From: Spirochaetota bacterium
GTDB lineage: Bacteria; Spirochaetota; Spirochaetia; Treponematales; UBA12059
Length of the DNA stretch: 64,000 nucleotides
Assembly: GCA_026398615.1 (NCBI GenBank)
Contig: JAPLSN010000041.1
Coordinates: forward strand, 66,578 to 130,577
Reading direction: 5' to 3'
The notes under the pieces are model-generated. The model searched no databases. It had not been told where the DNA came from and was given only the letters and a program-made list of their open reading frames with translations. Positions 28,810 through 37,851 of the stretch are shown one piece after another. Within the stretch, counting starts at the first letter, position 1, and every line of letters starts with the position of its first letter. The translations under genes were made by a program, and so were the position numbers.

Positions 28810-28877
28810 AGATTGGGAATATGATAACGACGGCTACTATATATGGTATGCAAGTGGCGAACCCGTGGAGGAAAGGG

Positions 28878-31800
28878 ATGAAAGTACAGCGCTATTTCAC
28901 GAAAAAGGGACAGGGTCCGTACGCGGGGATCACCTGGGAAAAACGAATCAGCGAAATCAGGAATCCCGACGGCAAGGTCGTGTTCCGGGCCGAGGGTGTC
29001 ATCGTTCCTTCCACATGGAGCCAGATCGCCACGGACATCATCGCCCAAAAGTACTTTCGGAAAGCGGGGGTTCCCGCCGACAAGGCGGATTCGTGGCGCG
29101 ATTTCATCCCTGAAGACCAGCGTTTGCCAATGGGCACGCCGTCCAAACCCGGCGCGGAGCATGACGCGCGGCAGGTTTTCCACCGCTTGGCCTATACCTG
29201 GATGCTTTGGGGCAGGAAATCCGGCTGTTTTGATTCCGAAGAGGACGAAAGCGCCTTCTACGACGAAACCTGCCGGATGCTCGCGCTCCAGATCGCGGCT
29301 CCGAACAGCCCGCAGTGGTTCAACACGGGTCTCCACGCTGCATACGGCATCGAGGGCCCCGCCCAGGGGCATTTCTACGTCGATCCGGAAAGCGGCGAGG
29401 TCGTCAAGTCCGAAAGCGCCTACGAGCGCCCGCAGCCCCATGCCTGTTTCATACTGGACATCCAGGACGACCTCGTCAACGACGGCGGGATCATGGACCT
29501 GATCACCCGCGAAGCCCGCCTCTTCAAGTACGGGTCGGGCACCGGATCCAATTTCTCCAGGATCCGGGGATCCACCGAACCGCTGTCCGGCGGCGGCCAT
29601 TCCAGCGGCCTCCTTTCCTTCCTGAAAATCGCCGACAGGTCGGCCAGCGCCATAAAGTCCGGCGGAACGACGCGCCGCGCCGCCAAGATGGTCATCCTCG
29701 ACGCCGACCATCCGGATATCGAGCATTACGTGGACTGGAAGGCCGGGGAAGAATACAAGGTCGCCTGCCTCGCCGCAGGCAGCGCCCTGCTCAGGTCCAT
29801 CGCGTCGAAAGTGCGCGACGCCCTCGTCGATTCCGAAATCCCCCACGAGCAGCGCTTTTCCATGGACTCCAATCCGAGGCTCCGGGCGACGGCCCGCGAT
29901 GCCCTCCGCTCCGGCGTGCCGGCGGCCTTCCTCCACCAGGTGATCCGGCGCTACGCCCAGGGCGAAGCCGACCTGGGTTTCCCCTCGTACGACACCTCCT
30001 GGGAAGGGGAAGCCTACAACACGGTTTCCGGCCAATCCTCCAACAACTCGGTGAGGGTTTCGAACGAGTTCATGGACGCCGTCGTGAAGAACAGGGACTG
30101 GGCCCTGACCGCCCGGACTTCGGGCAAGACGATGCGCACGGTCAAGGCGCGCGCGCTCTGGGACAGGATGGCGAAATCGGCGTGGACCTGCGCCGATCCC
30201 GGCCTGCAGTTCCACGGAACCGTCAACGAGTGGCACACCTGCCCCCAGGACGGCGAGATCCGCGGCTCCAACCCCTGCTCGGAATACATGTTCCTCGACG
30301 ATACGGCGTGCAACCTCGCGTCGCTCAACCTCACCGCTTTCTACGACGAGCAGTCGCGCGACTTCGCGACCGTCTCCTTCCGCCACGCCATCCGGATATG
30401 GACGACGGTGCTCGAGATCTCGGTCTCGATGGCCCAGTTCCCTTCGAGGGAAATCGCCAGGAAAAGCTGGGATTACCGCACCCTTGGGCTCGGTTTCGCC
30501 AACCTCGGCACCCTCCTCATGGTGATGGGACTGCCCTACGACTCGGACGAAGGCCGGGCCGTGGCGGCGGGCATCTCCGCCATCCTGACCGGGGAAGCAT
30601 ACGCACAGTCGGCGCGGATGGCCGCGGCCTTCGGTCCCTTCGCCCGTTTCGACGCCAACCGCGACGACATGCTCCGCGTCGTCCGCAACCACCGACGCGC
30701 CGCGCTGGGCGCCGATCCGGCCGGGTACGAAGGGCTCACCGTGCTCCCTGCGGGCCTGGACCGGGAAAAGTGCCCGAAAGGAATCGCGGCGGCGGCGATG
30801 GAATCCTGGGAAGAAGCCGTGACCCTCGGCGAGAAGCATGGATTCCGCAACGCGCAGGTAACCGCGATCGCGCCCACGGGCACCATCGGCCTCCTCATGG
30901 ACTGCGACACGACCGGCGTCGAACCCGATTTCGCCCTTGTGAAGTTCAAGAAACTGGCCGGCGGCGGATACTTCAAGCTCATCAACAGGAGCGTCCCCCC
31001 CGCGCTCAGGGCTCTTCGCTACAAGGCCGCCGAGATCGACGCGATCATCGCGTACGCCGTGGGCCGTGGGACCCTCAGGGGCGCTCCAGGCGTCTCGCGG
31101 GACGCGCTTGCGGAGAAGGGCCTGTCGACCGAAGCCCTCGACAGGGCCGACGAAGCCTTGCGGAACTCCATCGGCCTTTCGTCGGCCTTTGCGCCCCACG
31201 TGCTCGGGCCGGATGCCTTCCTCGCGCTGGGCATCCCCGAGGCCGACTATGACCTCCCGGGTTTCAATCTCCTGCTCCACCTCGGTTTTTCGCCCGAAGC
31301 CGTGGCCGAAGCCCAGGAGTACGCCTGCGGCGTCATGGGGATCGAGGGTTCGCCCTTCATCAAGCCGTCCCATTACGCCGTCTTCGATACGGCCACGCCC
31401 TCCGGGGAAAAAGGCACCAGGTCGATAGCCTGGCAAGCCCATGTCGCGATGATGGCGGCCGTCCAGCCTTTCGTTTCCGGCGCGATCTCCAAGACGATCA
31501 ACATGCCCAACTCCGCGGGCTTCGAGGACGTCAAGGGCGCGCACATGCTGGCGTGGAAGAGCATGCTCAAGTCCATAGCCCTCTACCGCGACGGCTCCAA
31601 GCTCTCCCAGCCACTTTCGGCGCTCGCGCCTGGCAGCGACCTCGTCGCCGACTCCATCATGGCCCTCGAGCAGGATCTCGGGGACTCGGGAGCGGAACCT
31701 CCGCTGCCCTCCGAGCCGGAACGCAGGCCTGGCATGCGGACGAGCCTTCCCAACAAACGCTCGGGCTATACGCAGAAAGCCAGGATCGGCGGCCACACCC

Positions 31801-32375
31801 TTTTCCTCCGCACCGGGGAATACGATGACGGCCGGGTGGGAGAGATATTCCTGGACATGCACAAGGAAGGCGCCGCGTTCAGGAGCCTCCTCAACTCCTT
31901 CGCGATCGCGGTGTCGCTCGGTCTCCAGTACGGCGTACCGCTCGAGGAGTACGTGGACGCCTTTACGTTCACGCGTTTCGAGCCGAACGGGATAGTCCAG
32001 GGCCATGAATACATCAAGATGGCCACGAGCGTCATCGATTATATCTTCAGGGACCTCGCGATCGCGTACATGAACCGCTACGACCTGGGCCAGGTAAAGC
32101 CCGAGGATCTCGTTTCGACCGCGACGCAGAACGGCAGATCCATCCGCCCCCAGCCGGAAGCGGTCCAAACCAGGCATGCGGCACCCGCCGACACGGCAAT
32201 TCCGGCGAAAACAGCCACCGCGACGCCCGCGAGGAAGGTGGAGGACCGCACCCGCATCGCGAGGATCAAGGGCTACGAAGGGGATCCCTGCCCTGTCTGC
32301 GGCCACCTCACCCTCGTCCGTAACGGCACCTGCCTCAAGTGCGAAACCTGCGGCAGCACTACCGGCTGCAGTTGA
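28878..32375 (+). CDS. nrdJ: adenosylcobalamin-dependent (class II) ribonucleotide reductase
   Basis: 1165 aa, the long NrdJ form. It reduces ribonucleotides using a B12-generated thiyl radical and needs no oxygen. Visible landmarks are [13 protein letters not shown] (one redox Cys), [22 protein letters not shown] (radical Cys and finger loop) and [16 protein letters not shown]. The C-terminal [15 protein letters not shown] and CETCGS form a zinc-ribbon tail that carries the redox-relay cysteines. ATG 28878 has GGAGGAAAGGG upstream; an in-frame ATG at 28821 lacks one. No nrdA, nrdB or nrdD is in the window. Confidence 0.96.
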
Positions 32376-32479
32376 TCATGAAAAACCGGGGGATTTTGAT
32401 TCCCCATCGTATTTCTCGCTTGAAGCGCAGGCAAAAGAGGGATATTATTTCGCAACCATTTCGATCAAGGAGAGGCAGC

Positions 32480-32881
32480 ATGCCCGTTTCGACCAAGAAG
32501 ACTCCCGAGAAGAAGACGTCTGCGACCGCCTCGAAAAAACCGGCCGCAAAACCGGCCGAGAAAAAGGTAACCGTGTCCAAGACCGGGAAACCCCTCACAA
32601 AGACCCAGATCGTGGGACAGCTGGCCGAGATGAACGGCCTTACCCGCAAGCAGGTCATGGCCTTCCTCGACGCATTCGCCGACCTCGCCTACAGGGAAGC
32701 CAGGAAAAACCAGAAGTTCACCCTCCCCGGGCTCGGCATCCTCAAGCTCAACAAGCGCAAGGCCCGCGTCGGACGGAACCCGGCCACCGGCGAATCCATC
32801 AAGATTCCCGCCAAGACCGTCGTCAAGGTCACCGTTTCCAAGGCCTGCAAGGAAGCCATCCTCGGAGCACCCAAAAAATAG
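32480..32881 (+). CDS. HU-family DNA-binding protein with basic N-terminal tail
   Basis: 133 aa. Residues about 1-38 are a Lys/Ala/Pro-rich tail resembling a histone H1 terminus. The rest is an HU fold: GKPLTKTQIVGQLAEMNG, FTLPGLGILKL, RNPATGESIKIPAKTVVKV. The arm motif RVGRNPATG is intact. It should compact or bend DNA. AAGGAGAGG precedes the ATG. It lies 104 bases after nrdJ and is followed by a terminator, so it may be co-transcribed with nrdJ or separately expressed. Confidence 0.92.
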   Translation: MPVSTKKTPEKKTSATASKKPAAKPAEKKVTVSKTGKPLTKTQIVGQLAEMNGLTRKQVMAFLDAFADLAYREARKNQKFTLPGLGILKLNKRKARVGRNPATGESIKIPAKTVVKVTVSKACKEAILGAPKK

Positions 32882-33143: not shown

Positions 33144-35339
33144 TCATGGCGCGCCGTCGCCTTGCGCGTCCCGTACCACGTCCTCGATCTTTCGCACGAT
33201 GTCCGCGGCGAAAGCGGCAAGGTCGGGAACCTCGGCCCTGTCGAAGCGGAAACCGACGGCGCCCGGGTGTCCGCCGCCGTTGAGGAAGGAATACCGGCTC
33301 AGGATGTCGCGGAGGTCGAGGGACTGGAAGCCCTGGGCCCGCCTGAGACGGAATTGCACGAAATTCGAGAGCGCCGGATCGTCGGGATACGCGACCATGC
33401 CAAGACAGCCGCTTTCCTCGGCGAGCGTATCGGCCACCGCCTTGGAGACCGAGGACACGATGTCGTTCCCGTAGGTTTCGTAAAGGAAAGATGACTCCGC
33501 GGCATCGAGGATGACGAAACGCAGGTTTTCGGAGCCCGAACGCTTGCGGTGCATGTACCGGAAGCACTCCTCCTCGTCGCCCGACAGGGATGCGATCGCC
33601 TTGAACACCTCTTCCTTCGAAGTGAAATTGGCGGAATTGCGGTGCGTCTTCTGTGAGAGCATCCTGTCGAAGAGCGCGCTGAACCACTCGTAGTACCAAC
33701 GTTCCTTCCGCGTCTTCAGGTACTTGCCCATGCGGGAATCGCCGATCATCCCGGTCAGCACGGCGAGCACGAAGTTGCGGGAGAACACCTCGTCGATCTG
33801 GTGCCGCGCCTTGTATTCGGCCGCGAGATCCATCTTGAACGCGAGCAGGCCGACGAGTTCGCTCGCCGAGGAAGCTCCCGTGACGAGGTTGTAGCCATGG
33901 TCCCCGAAATAGGTCGAATCGGCCTCGAGATGATGGTCGATCTCGATCTTCAGCACGGATTCGTCCCCGACCAGGGCGCGGATCGCCGGACTGTCCTCGA
34001 GCATGGACGGCTTGGGCGTGTCGAGGGCGATGACGGCCTGGACCGGCCCCGGCAAGTCCGAACCATCGGCGCTGAGATGGATCGAGTTGTAGGTGCAGAT
34101 GGAAAGCAGGTACGAGAACTGCTCGTGCAACGCCCCGCCCGTGACCAGGTAGACGGTCTTGTTGAGCTTGCCGGCGAGAAGCCCGAAGGCGACCATCGAG
34201 GCGATGCAATCCTCGTCGGGATTGCGGTGCCCGAGGAGGAGCAGGCCGTCCCGCTGCTCGAGGGCGGCGAGGATGTTCCCGATGATCCTGTTCTTTTCGG
34301 CGAGCGAACGCAGTTCCTTCTTGATCGCCCCGCGCTCGCCTCCCAGGGAGGGAGCGGGAGGCGGCGGCAGGGCGGCGCGGTCCCGCCCGAGTTCCTTGGC
34401 GTGGTACAGCGCGCGGTCGGCCGCAGCCGTGAGTGCATCGAGGCTCCGCGCGTGCTCGGGCAGGGACGCGACCCCGAGACTGGCGCTCACGGTGAGTCCC
34501 TCGCGACCGGGGAAGGTGAGGCTCCGGATCTCCTTGCAGACGTTCTCGCAGATCCCGAGGGCTTCGGCAGGGCCGGTTCCCGGGAGGACGAAGGTGAATT
34601 CGTCCCCGCCGTAGCGGACGAGGATGTCCCTTTCCCTGAACACCCGCCTGAACGCCTTCGATGCCTCCAGGATCACCAGGTCGCCGAATGCCATTCCGTG
34701 GGCCTTGTTGAGGTCGCCGAAGTGGTCGAGGTCGAACATCGCCACTGAGAGGGGCGCGTTGTCGATCACGGAGCGTTCGAAAATCCCCTGGAGGGAATCG
34801 TCGAGGAAGCGCCGGTTGAATAGACCCGTGGCCTCGTCGGTGACGGCGCGCCTTCGGGCCGATTCGCCCCACTGGACCATCTGCGACAGGAAGGAGCTCG
34901 TGGCGAGGAGGCGCCCCGTCGTGATCGCCAGCATCCGCTGCATGACGCGCGCCGCCGCGCCCGGCTTTTCCCGCACCAGCAGGTCGAAGTCGCGCGCGTG
35001 AAGGGAAAGCAGCACGGAATCCTCGATGATCCTGCAGGTGGCCGAACGGGGCGCCCTCTCGATCAGGGACATTTCGCCGAAAAAACCTCCCGAAGGCACC
35101 CGCGATATGGTGAGATCCTTGCCGTCATGCAGGGTGAGGGAAATGCCGACCGAGCCGCTCAAGACGACGAAGAGCTCGTCGCCGGCCGATCCCTCCACGA
35201 AGAGGGTTTCGCCGGCCGGACATTCCCGCCGTTTCATGCGGCCGAATACGAGAGCCAGGTCGTCGGGACCGAGTCCGGAAAATATGCCTATGGATTCGAG
35301 CACGCCCTCGGGCCTGTCCTTCGTTTCCGTTCCGCCCAT
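33144..35339 (-). CDS. cNMP-binding/GGDEF/DHH-DHHA1 phosphoesterase fusion
   Basis: 731 aa with three signalling modules. Residues about 12-130 are a CRP-like cyclic-nucleotide-binding domain with an intact phosphate cassette (FGEMSLIERAPRSATCR at 87-103). Residues about 165-325 are a GGDEF domain with GGDEF at 244-248 and a product-inhibition site RERD exactly five residues upstream. Residues about 350-731 are a DHH/DHHA1 phosphoesterase: HRNPDED, VIALDTP, EIDHH and GGGHPGAVGF. It could make c-di-GMP under cNMP control and hydrolyse a dinucleotide (pGpG, pApA or c-di-AMP). It follows a related gene with no gap. Confidence 0.88.
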   Translation of the reverse strand: MGGTETKDRPEGVLESIGIFSGLGPDDLALVFGRMKRRECPAGETLFVEGSAGDELFVVLSGSVGISLTLHDGKDLTISRVPSGGFFGEMSLIERAPRSATCRIIEDSVLLSLHARDFDLLVREKPGAAARVMQRMLAITTGRLLATSSFLSQMVQWGESARRRAVTDEATGLFNRRFLDDSLQGIFERSVIDNAPLSVAMFDLDHFGDLNKAHGMAFGDLVILEASKAFRRVFRERDILVRYGGDEFTFVLPGTGPAEALGICENVCKEIRSLTFPGREGLTVSASLGVASLPEHARSLDALTAAADRALYHAKELGRDRAALPPPPAPSLGGERGAIKKELRSLAEKNRIIGNILAALEQRDGLLLLGHRNPDEDCIASMVAFGLLAGKLNKTVYLVTGGALHEQFSYLLSICTYNSIHLSADGSDLPGPVQAVIALDTPKPSMLEDSPAIRALVGDESVLKIEIDHHLEADSTYFGDHGYNLVTGASSASELVGLLAFKMDLAAEYKARHQIDEVFSRNFVLAVLTGMIGDSRMGKYLKTRKERWYYEWFSALFDRMLSQKTHRNSANFTSKEEVFKAIASLSGDEEECFRYMHRKRSGSENLRFVILDAAESSFLYETYGNDIVSSVSKAVADTLAEESGCLGMVAYPDDPALSNFVQFRLRRAQGFQSLDLRDILSRYSFLNGGGHPGAVGFRFDRAEVPDLAAFAADIVRKIEDVVRDAQGDGAP

Positions 35340-36356
35340 CTACTGCCTGTCCTCGGGGAAAAGGATGATGCCGCCCCCGCGCGCCCTGCCCGCGAGGGGA
35401 AGCTCGTGGGCGATGGCTATCAGGGCGAGGGCGTCCTTCGCGTGATCGGGGTGCAGGGCTATGCCGAAACTGAATGACAGCTTGAGGGAGGATCCCTCCG
35501 TAAAGGCGCTGATGTCGAGGGCGACGAGCCGCTCCATGATGCGGGCGGCTTCCGCCCGCGCGGCGCCGCGGTCCCGCCCAGGCAGCGTCACCGCGAGCTC
35601 GTTGCCCATGTACCGGAATGCCGTGTCGGATTCGTCGAGGCATCGCGAAAGCTCCAGGGCCACCAGTTTCAGTACGGAGTCGCCGGCTTCGTGGCCCCAG
35701 GTGTCGTTGATTTCCTTGAAGTTGTCCGGCTTGAACATGAGGAGGGCCGACGGTCCGGCACGGTCCTTGAGGATCTCGGCGAGTCGTTCCTCGAGGAAGG
35801 TCTTGTTGAAAAGGCCGGTCAGCTTGTCGCCGTAGACCTGCCGCTTGAGTTCCTGCACGACGGGCGAGTTCTCCTTGATGAGCGCGTTGGCGTTCCGGAT
35901 GCGCCCCGCGATGGAATCGAGGAAATCGTAGAGCATCCGCGCGGACGCGGCCGGATGCCCCGCAAGGACTTCGTCGAAGCCGAGCCCCTTCCGTGGAAAA
36001 ACGATGAGCTCGGTCGGGGTTTCCGCGATCGCGGAAGCGTTCCTCGGAGCCGCCGTGAGAAGCTCGAGTTCCCCGAAACAGTCGCCGGGCACGAGTTCCG
36101 CGATGAGGGAGGAACCATCGTCCGAGATGCCCACGGATCCCCGCACGACGACGAAGAGGGCGTCGCCCGGGGCGTCGCGCCCGTACACGGTCTCTCCGGG
36201 CGCGTAGACCCGGCGTTCGGAACATGAGGCCACGGCACGGAGTTCGTCGCCGCCCAGGGAAGAGAAGATACTGGCCTTCCCGAGCCATTCGATCGTGTCG
36301 GCCCGGACAGGCTGCGAGCCGGGCTTCGGGCGCCCTGGCTTTTTCACTGCTTTCAT
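35340..36356 (-). CDS. cNMP-binding protein with degenerate GGDEF domain
   Basis: 338 aa. A CRP-like sensor domain (FGELELLTAAPRNASA cassette) precedes a GGDEF-fold domain with LTGLFNKTFLEERL and FKPDNFKEINDTWGHEAGD. The signature itself reads MGNEL instead of GGDEF, and the inhibitory RxxD is missing, so cyclase activity is unlikely. Its stop codon is directly adjacent to the start of the active fusion protein, which it may regulate as a pseudo-enzyme partner. I chose ATG 36356, where a promoter -10 box ends eight bases upstream; no ribosome site is present. Confidence 0.85.
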   Translation of the reverse strand: MKAVKKPGRPKPGSQPVRADTIEWLGKASIFSSLGGDELRAVASCSERRVYAPGETVYGRDAPGDALFVVVRGSVGISDDGSSLIAELVPGDCFGELELLTAAPRNASAIAETPTELIVFPRKGLGFDEVLAGHPAASARMLYDFLDSIAGRIRNANALIKENSPVVQELKRQVYGDKLTGLFNKTFLEERLAEILKDRAGPSALLMFKPDNFKEINDTWGHEAGDSVLKLVALELSRCLDESDTAFRYMGNELAVTLPGRDRGAARAEAARIMERLVALDISAFTEGSSLKLSFSFGIALHPDHAKDALALIAIAHELPLAGRARGGGIILFPEDRQ

Positions 36357-36597: not shown

Positions 36598-37851
36598 TTG
36601 GACCACGCGAAAAAGACCATACTCCTCGTCGAAGACGAAGCTATCCTCGCCCTCGACAAGGCTCATTGCCTGAAAAATCTCGGGTACGGGGTCATCCACG
36701 CGCTCGACGGCGAGACGGCCGTCGAAACGGTGCGCTCGTCCCCCGGCTCCATCGACCTCGTCCTCATGGACATCAACCTCGGGGAGGGAATCGACGGGAC
36801 CGAGACCGCGCGGAAAATCCACGAACTCCGCGAAATTCCCGTCGTATTCCTCTCCGCGCATACGGAGAAGAACGTCGTCGAAAAGACGGAATCCGTCACA
36901 TCGTACGGATACATCGTCAAGAATTCCGGCATGACGGTCCTGGATGCTTCGATAAAGATGGCTTTCAAGCTCTTCAACGCCAACAACACGTGCAGGGAGA
37001 GGGAAGAAGAATACCGCTCCATCGTCCAGAACCAGCACGAGATGATCTGCAGGTTCCTCCCCGATACCACCCTTACCTTCGTCAACGATGCGTATTGCCG
37101 CAATTTCGGGAAACGCTCCGACGAACTTTCGGGAACCCGCTTTCTCGACCTGGTGCCCCGGGAAGACCACGCGCCCATACTGGAACGGATTGAAAGGGCG
37201 AGGACGACGAGGCAGCCCATCGAATTCGAGCACAGGGTGATCTACCCCGACGGCTCGACGGGTTGGCAGAGCTGGAAGGACAGCCCCATCCTCGACAGGG
37301 ACGGCGCCGTGGCGGAGTTCCAGTCCGTCGGCATGGACATCACGGAGCGCAAGCGGGCGGAAGACGCGCTCAGGGCGAACGAGGACCTGTACCGAACGCT
37401 CGCTGAAACTTCACCCGATATGATCTACCTCGTCGACAGGGACCGGCGGATCTCCTATGTCAATACGGTCGCCGCGATGGCCTTCATGAAGGCCCCGGAG
37501 GAGATCCGTGGAAGGAAGCTCGAGGAGGTATTTTCGCCCGGGATCGCGGAACGACACTGGGCAGCCATCGGGAGAGTCATGGAAACCGGCATGAGTCTTG
37601 CGAGTGAAGCCCGCGAAGCCTTTCCGTCGGGCGAAGTCTGGATCGACGCCCGCCTTTCGCCCGTACGGGGCAGGGACGGTGCGATCGTCGCGGTGCTGGG
37701 GGTTTCGACCGACATCTCCGGTCGCAAGAAGACTGAAGCGGCGCTGCTCGAGAACGAACGTTCCCTGACCGGCCTGTCAGACTCGGTAAGGAAGCTCGAG
37801 GAAACGATCGTCCGGAAGGAAGCCCTCATCCGGGAGCTCCGGGCACGCTGA
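36598..37851 (+). CDS. receiver domain plus two PAS domains, no output module
   Basis: 417 aa. A CheY-like receiver (about 6-125) has the acidic pocket VEDE, the phospho-Asp in LVLMDINLGEG and the conserved Lys in YIVKNSG. Two PAS/PAC units follow (about 137-260 and 262-382), each ending in a DITERKRA or DISGRKKT-type linker. A short coiled coil ends the protein. No histidine-kinase, GGDEF, EAL or DNA-binding domain follows, so it may pass its signal by protein contact. TTG 36598 is used because GGAGG lies seven bases upstream. Confidence 0.85.
   Translation: MDHAKKTILLVEDEAILALDKAHCLKNLGYGVIHALDGETAVETVRSSPGSIDLVLMDINLGEGIDGTETARKIHELREIPVVFLSAHTEKNVVEKTESVTSYGYIVKNSGMTVLDASIKMAFKLFNANNTCREREEEYRSIVQNQHEMICRFLPDTTLTFVNDAYCRNFGKRSDELSGTRFLDLVPREDHAPILERIERARTTRQPIEFEHRVIYPDGSTGWQSWKDSPILDRDGAVAEFQSVGMDITERKRAEDALRANEDLYRTLAETSPDMIYLVDRDRRISYVNTVAAMAFMKAPEEIRGRKLEEVFSPGIAERHWAAIGRVMETGMSLASEAREAFPSGEVWIDARLSPVRGRDGAIVAVLGVSTDISGRKKTEAALLENERSLTGLSDSVRKLEETIVRKEALIRELRAR

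Follow-up and report, generated by a model that had tools for sequence, protein, structure and literature searches.

Within the window, the whole 64,000-nucleotide stretch of spirochaete DNA that we analysed, a minus-strand gene with an ATG start (33144-35339) encodes a 731-aa protein in which cNMP-binding and GGDEF domains are joined to a DHH/DHHA1 half. We denote the cNMP-GGDEF half of this fusion protein B, and the fusion gene B-DHH. Adjoining it upstream on the same strand is gene A (35340-36356, taking the ATG at 36356 as the probable start codon; as called mechanically, the open reading frame begins at 36659), which encodes a cNMP-binding domain followed by a pseudo-GGDEF domain with the motifs KPDNFK and MGNEL. 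The TAG stop codon of A is followed with zero gap by the start ATG of B-DHH and, because stop and start abut in this way, the two genes are probably a translationally coupled two-gene unit. On the opposite strand, heading towards this module, lie genes for a B12-dependent class II ribonucleotide reductase (28821-32375, plus strand) and an HU-type DNA-binding protein (32339-32881, plus strand).

The cNMP-binding domain (aa 38-123; 34971-35228, minus strand; Pfam PF00027, E 4e-20) contains the phosphate-binding cassette GEMSLIERAPRSA at aa 88-100 of the 731-aa protein. The cassette arginine is present in 62/62 B homologues and the glutamate in 56/62, and, by sequence, the domain matches PKA and Crp-type chains that bind cAMP. 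With an intact cassette and class III cyclases in the same genome (13 matches, some partial), this domain is predicted to bind a cyclic mononucleotide. The GGDEF domain (aa 165-321; 34377-34847, minus strand; PF00990, E 1e-33) includes the DxD motif within FDLDHF from aa 202, YGGDEF from aa 243 and an RxxD from aa 235, 5 residues ahead of GGDEF. The DHH domain (aa 368-509; 33813-34238, minus strand) scores above the Pfam cut-off (PF01368, E 2e-7) and shows GHRNPDEDC (motif I) from aa 370, ALDTP from 438 and IDHH from 467, with IGDS following from 532. The DHHA1-like domain (aa 617-716; 33192-33491, minus strand) falls below the cut-off (PF02272, E 0.02; 15.7 bits vs 25.9); GGGHPGA is present from aa 688 and a fold match spans the region. 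Among 40 family members, 32 have a DHHA1 match at E<=0.01 in Pfam, and in the alignment of 40 homologues GGGH is invariant and DHH motifs I-IV are invariant or nearly so. No NCBIfam equivalog scored above its cut-off for the DHH side of the family.

An earlier note on this DNA had described a soluble protein with intact cNMP cassette, GGDEF, DHH and DHHA1 motifs, and all of these were found, at the spacing that it gave. No hydrophobic stretch is long enough for a membrane helix (the highest 19-residue mean hydropathy is 1.35), and the Pfam scan detected no PAS domain, the cNMP domain standing in its place. The full-length AlphaFold2 model, built with 39 aligned sequences, has a mean pLDDT of 87 and a pTM of 0.51, so that the arrangement of the domains is not fixed by it; it contains a long helical stretch (aa 126-146 and 149-166) joining the sensor to the GGDEF domain, and DHH is preceded by a flexible linker some 20 residues long. 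Across 38 other full-length homologues, which share 38-51% identity with the window protein, the catalytic residues vary little or not at all, and this conservation excludes chance. A sequencing or ORF artefact is likewise ruled out, given that full-length homologues keep the whole chain.

The A-B pair and its two GGDEF domains

A and B are paralogues, and A lies directly upstream in every three-domain locus that is not cut by a contig end. In A genes, the first metal Asp is Lys in 59/60 and Gln in 1/60, and the GGDEF Asp is replaced by Asn in 53/61; in PleD numbering, used here for A and B alike, the guanine-binding equivalents are kept (Asn335 in 58/60, Asp344 in 59/61). Judging from the replacement of the first metal Asp in 60/60 sequences, A is catalytically dead as a cyclase. 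The B proteins have GGDEF intact in 63/67 cases and decayed in 4/67, retain the equivalents of the metal Asp, Asn335, Lys442 and Arg446 in 62-65 of 67, and have Asp at the Asp344 equivalent in 57/67. Thus B carries, to judge by these residues, the diguanylate cyclase signature (GGDEF, metal Asp, guanine-binding Asn/Asp) and is predicted to be a cyclase, seemingly an active one. The combination of a uniformly dead A with a nearly uniformly intact B argues for a division of labour under selection.

The position of PleD Lys332 is Gly in 44/67 B proteins; in PleD, the contact made by this residue is probably a main-chain one. The RxxD feedback site to which the earlier note had drawn attention is present and properly spaced in the window protein, but only 39/67 homologues carry it, so that this I-site is not a defining trait of the family. 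These two features and the four decayed motifs would fit an alternative in which the GGDEF domain of B senses a nucleotide in a regulatory role instead of acting as a cyclase, such that the cNMP and GGDEF domains only gate DHH as in a soluble analogue of GdpP, for which a regulatory, ATP-hydrolysing GGDEF offers a precedent (PMC12943098, PMC10720645). We nevertheless regard this alternative as improbable because the GGDEF motif, metal Asp and other cyclase residues of B are intact at the frequencies given above, quite unlike those of the neighbouring A, which is dead throughout, and we continue to favour a catalytic role for B.

Fusion genes with a decayed GGDEF and retained DHH motifs were also observed, namely L063:598-2766(-), with GSEKF, and L064:3-2012(-), with GGDKF.

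Fused, split and lone versions

Homology searches in overlapping genome sets (order, 294 genomes; class, 395; phylum, 345) placed the DHH family in many families of class Spirochaetia; outside this class, the DHH frames are nearly all of a length that fits a stand-alone protein. Scoring the domains of the fetched loci with purpose-made profiles yielded 101 DHH homologues, the window included, of which 46 are fused, 21 have a separate B ORF just upstream, mostly with A ahead of B, and 34 are lone. The cNMP-GGDEF-DHH fusion accounts for 43 of the 46 fused cases, including the window; the remaining 3 (L152, L157 and L164) consist of a GGDEF-like part and DHH only, L152 being cut by a contig end and the GGDEF motifs of L157 and L164 having decayed. 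When mapped on the DHH tree, a quick tree with support by SH-aLRT only, the fused or non-fused state changes 16 times, and at least 12 of these changes are forced by the starred branches. Such recurrent fusion or fission of neighbouring genes suggests a joint function of A-B and DHH. Accordingly, the repeated fusions and the operon linkage lend comparative support to the signalling hub envisaged in the earlier note, although the functional unit consists of two genes and the pseudo-GGDEF partner had gone unmentioned.

The split state is common to sister genomes in three groups (L176/L178/L179; L138/L145; L160/L169/L173). Some other split loci may be assembly frameshifts, the candidate being L043:6951-9183(+) in the relative G057, where the fusion appears as two overlapping frames of 330 and 532 aa, either a true split or such a frameshift. 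Genomes of family f16 contain a second DHH copy (L157, L164, L166, L171) that has a decayed or missing GGDEF part and forms a separate clade of the tree.

A-type matches are found in 43/58 DHH-positive vs 52/236 DHH-negative genomes of the order, a hand count that ignores shared ancestry. In a genome that we take to be that of T. denticola, an A-B pair (A motifs KPDNFK/QGNEF, B motifs DIDHF/GGDEF) lies about 630 kb from a lone DHH gene. A second genome, presumably that of T. pallidum, has a lone DHH gene (L073:7785-8990(+)) and one GGDEF match, with no A-type and no EAL match, which indicates that DHH can work without A-B. Conversely, some A-B pairs lack DHH. Among them are two in the window's own genome, where cNMP-pseudoGGDEF/cNMP-GGDEF tandems were observed at G000:C36:3022-4970 and G000:C26:4147-6104 (L192, L193); similar tandems occur in members of the family that have no DHH gene. 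We infer that the A-B pair is a broader spirochaete unit and that DHH became coupled to one lineage of such pairs. In A-B pairs that lack DHH, B frames as long as 538-700 aa were considered as possible carriers of extra fused domains; the excess turned out to be only an overlapping stretch of open frame ahead of B, without any added tail.

In several treponemes, a lone DHH gene is followed by queH, a tRNA-modification gene, with ends that touch or overlap (L071:7206-7820(-), L078:9018-9695(+), L080:6666-7328(-)). The queH (epoxyqueuosine reductase) call is based on a Pfam match for L071 and on a similar sequence start in L078 and L080.

Fold and likely substrate of the DHH half

Modelled with AlphaFold2 (pLDDT 89), the DHH half is most similar to TmPDE with pApA (Z 30.8), a Bacteroides nanoRNase (29.7) and NrnA/Pde2 (29.6), followed by Rv2837c (Z 28), Borrelia DhhP (27) and the catalytic domain of GdpP (5xsi; 23), and sequence-profile ranking places TmPDE first and GdpP second. 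In the model, therefore, the DHH part is nearer in fold to TmPDE/NrnA/DhhP (Z 27-31 across about 315 residues) than to the GdpP catalytic domain. It shares with TmPDE (TM1595), NrnA/Pde2 and DhhP the phosphodiesterase fold and the motif series HxxPDxD, D, DHH, D, GGGH; however, those enzymes are stand-alone proteins of about 320 aa, whereas the spirochaete half comprises about 400 aa, is fused to a sensor and a cyclase, has a larger region separating DHH from DHHA1, and is only 13-20% identical to them. Enzymes of this subgroup cut c-di-AMP, pApA and short RNA (PMC5207132, PMC5593865, PMC10720645, PMC4408052). Taking the best PDB match as proof of the substrate was rejected because NrnA, TmPDE, Rv2837c and DhhP are all within a few Z units of one another.

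Co-occurrence with other signalling genes was also considered. DAC is encoded in 280/294 genomes of the order, with one copy in the window's own genome, and c-di-AMP is probably available in these organisms; being near-universal, however, DAC is uninformative with regard to the substrate. Genomes with DAC and without a DHH protein of this family are common and another NrnA-like DHH protein (L003) is present in the window's own genome, which together imply that the DHH protein described here cannot be the obligatory c-di-AMP hydrolase. EAL proteins show no association with DHH (28/58 genomes with DHH vs 143/236 without, p 0.10; hand count within the order) and, as an indicator of substrate, EAL co-occurrence was likewise discarded.

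These data bear on the possibility that the DHH half hydrolyses pGpG, or c-di-GMP itself, to GMP, which would make the protein a self-contained, cNMP-controlled enzyme for making and breaking c-di-GMP. The fusion of DHH to an intact GGDEF speaks for this possibility, as do the EAL proteins in all ten genomes of the order with an intact B locus, the GGDEF proteins in 33/33 DHH-positive genomes tested, and the general acceptance of short oligonucleotides by NrnA-type enzymes (PMC5593865, PMC9757072). However, in L063 and L064, the signature of the B GGDEF is lost and neither genome has an EAL match, yet the DHH motifs are kept, completely in L063 and as far as the contig reaches in L064. Together with the missing tie between DHH and EAL, this argues against a dedicated role in pGpG turnover, as does the retention of DHH in the T. 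pallidum-like genome that lacks an EAL match, so that we consider this possibility rather unlikely. Alternatively, the DHH half could be a nanoRNase or another RNA-turnover enzyme that is merely co-regulated through the operon link, as its fold near NrnA and the Bacteroides nanoRNase and the queH neighbour in some treponemes might suggest. This, too, appears unlikely, because the recurrent fusion partner is a second-messenger enzyme, not an RNA enzyme, and the genome encodes the separate NrnA-like protein. On balance, c-di-AMP/pApA or short oligonucleotides are, with moderate confidence, the predicted substrates in preference to EAL-derived pGpG.

Proposed mechanism and known systems

The reading that we prefer, with a probability of roughly 0.55, is that the module encodes a cyclic-nucleotide-gated diguanylate cyclase, tuned by the pseudo-cyclase A and coupled to a DHH/DHHA1 phosphodiesterase. 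Under this model, which is built on motifs, gene order and predicted fold, a cyclic mononucleotide in the cNMP domain would cause B homodimers to make c-di-GMP from GTP, with the signal reaching the GGDEF dimer by way of the long helical connection at aa 126-166. Because A retains the guanine-binding equivalents of Asn335 and Asp344 while having lost the metal Asp, it would probably bind GTP or pair with B and tune the cyclase without catalysis of its own. The C-terminal DHH/DHHA1 half would be a phosphodiesterase of the Mn2+ type, cleaving a dinucleotide (most likely c-di-AMP/pApA) or other short oligonucleotides, and fusion or operon linkage would let cyclase and phosphodiesterase share one cyclic-nucleotide input. 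A more tentative extension, doubtful as it stands, is a class-wide switch in which a cAMP/cGMP-sensing pseudo-cyclase and an active cyclase set c-di-GMP synthesis and the fused DHH removes c-di-AMP (or pApA); if so, a single cyclic mononucleotide signal would, through one operon, shift two cyclic dinucleotides in opposite directions.

Each of the domains is known individually, and the three-domain combination and the pairing of a seemingly active with a dead GGDEF are conserved over the class. In the open-access papers searched, we found none describing the cNMP, GGDEF and DHH architecture and none characterising the lone version, the only one in which the DHH family extends to the T. denticola- and T. 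pallidum-like genomes. The module suggests a junction between second-messenger systems and, to our knowledge, direct coupling of three such systems in one protein is rare. It offers a candidate, open to testing, for the link between cAMP, c-di-GMP and c-di-AMP in spirochaetes, and its domain logic should be easy to dissect given how many split and fused versions occur in nature.

As in GdpP/YybT, a single chain carries a GGDEF-type domain and, after it, DHH/DHHA1, and the DHH fold is shared. The resemblance ends there: GdpP/YybT combines membrane segments with PAS and a degenerate GGDEF, as the earlier note had pointed out, whereas the fusion protein is soluble and has a cNMP sensor, an intact, canonical GGDEF and a pseudo-GGDEF partner gene beside it. 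Membership in GdpP was rejected, only the DHH/DHHA1 part being in common. In the DHH-GGDEF proteins known to us (GdpP), the GGDEF is dead; here it seems to be active, and the dead copy comes in trans from the adjacent gene throughout the class.

None of the other related systems in the papers found combines these parts likewise. The Bdellovibrio protein Bd1971 is a cNMP-EAL protein activated by cAMP/cGMP (PMC6717892), in which a cNMP-binding domain controls a c-di-GMP enzyme, as predicted here; its output, however, is an EAL phosphodiesterase, without GGDEF or DHH. Lcd1 of Leptospira is a GAF-GGDEF protein, a spirochaete diguanylate cyclase activated by cAMP (PMC8846402, PMC6717892), but it senses through GAF and has neither a cNMP fold nor DHH. 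In FimX and CC3396, a degenerate GGDEF is kept as a GTP sensor (PMC8846402, PMC12943098); there, the dead GGDEF is in cis with EAL, whereas here it belongs to a separate cNMP protein.
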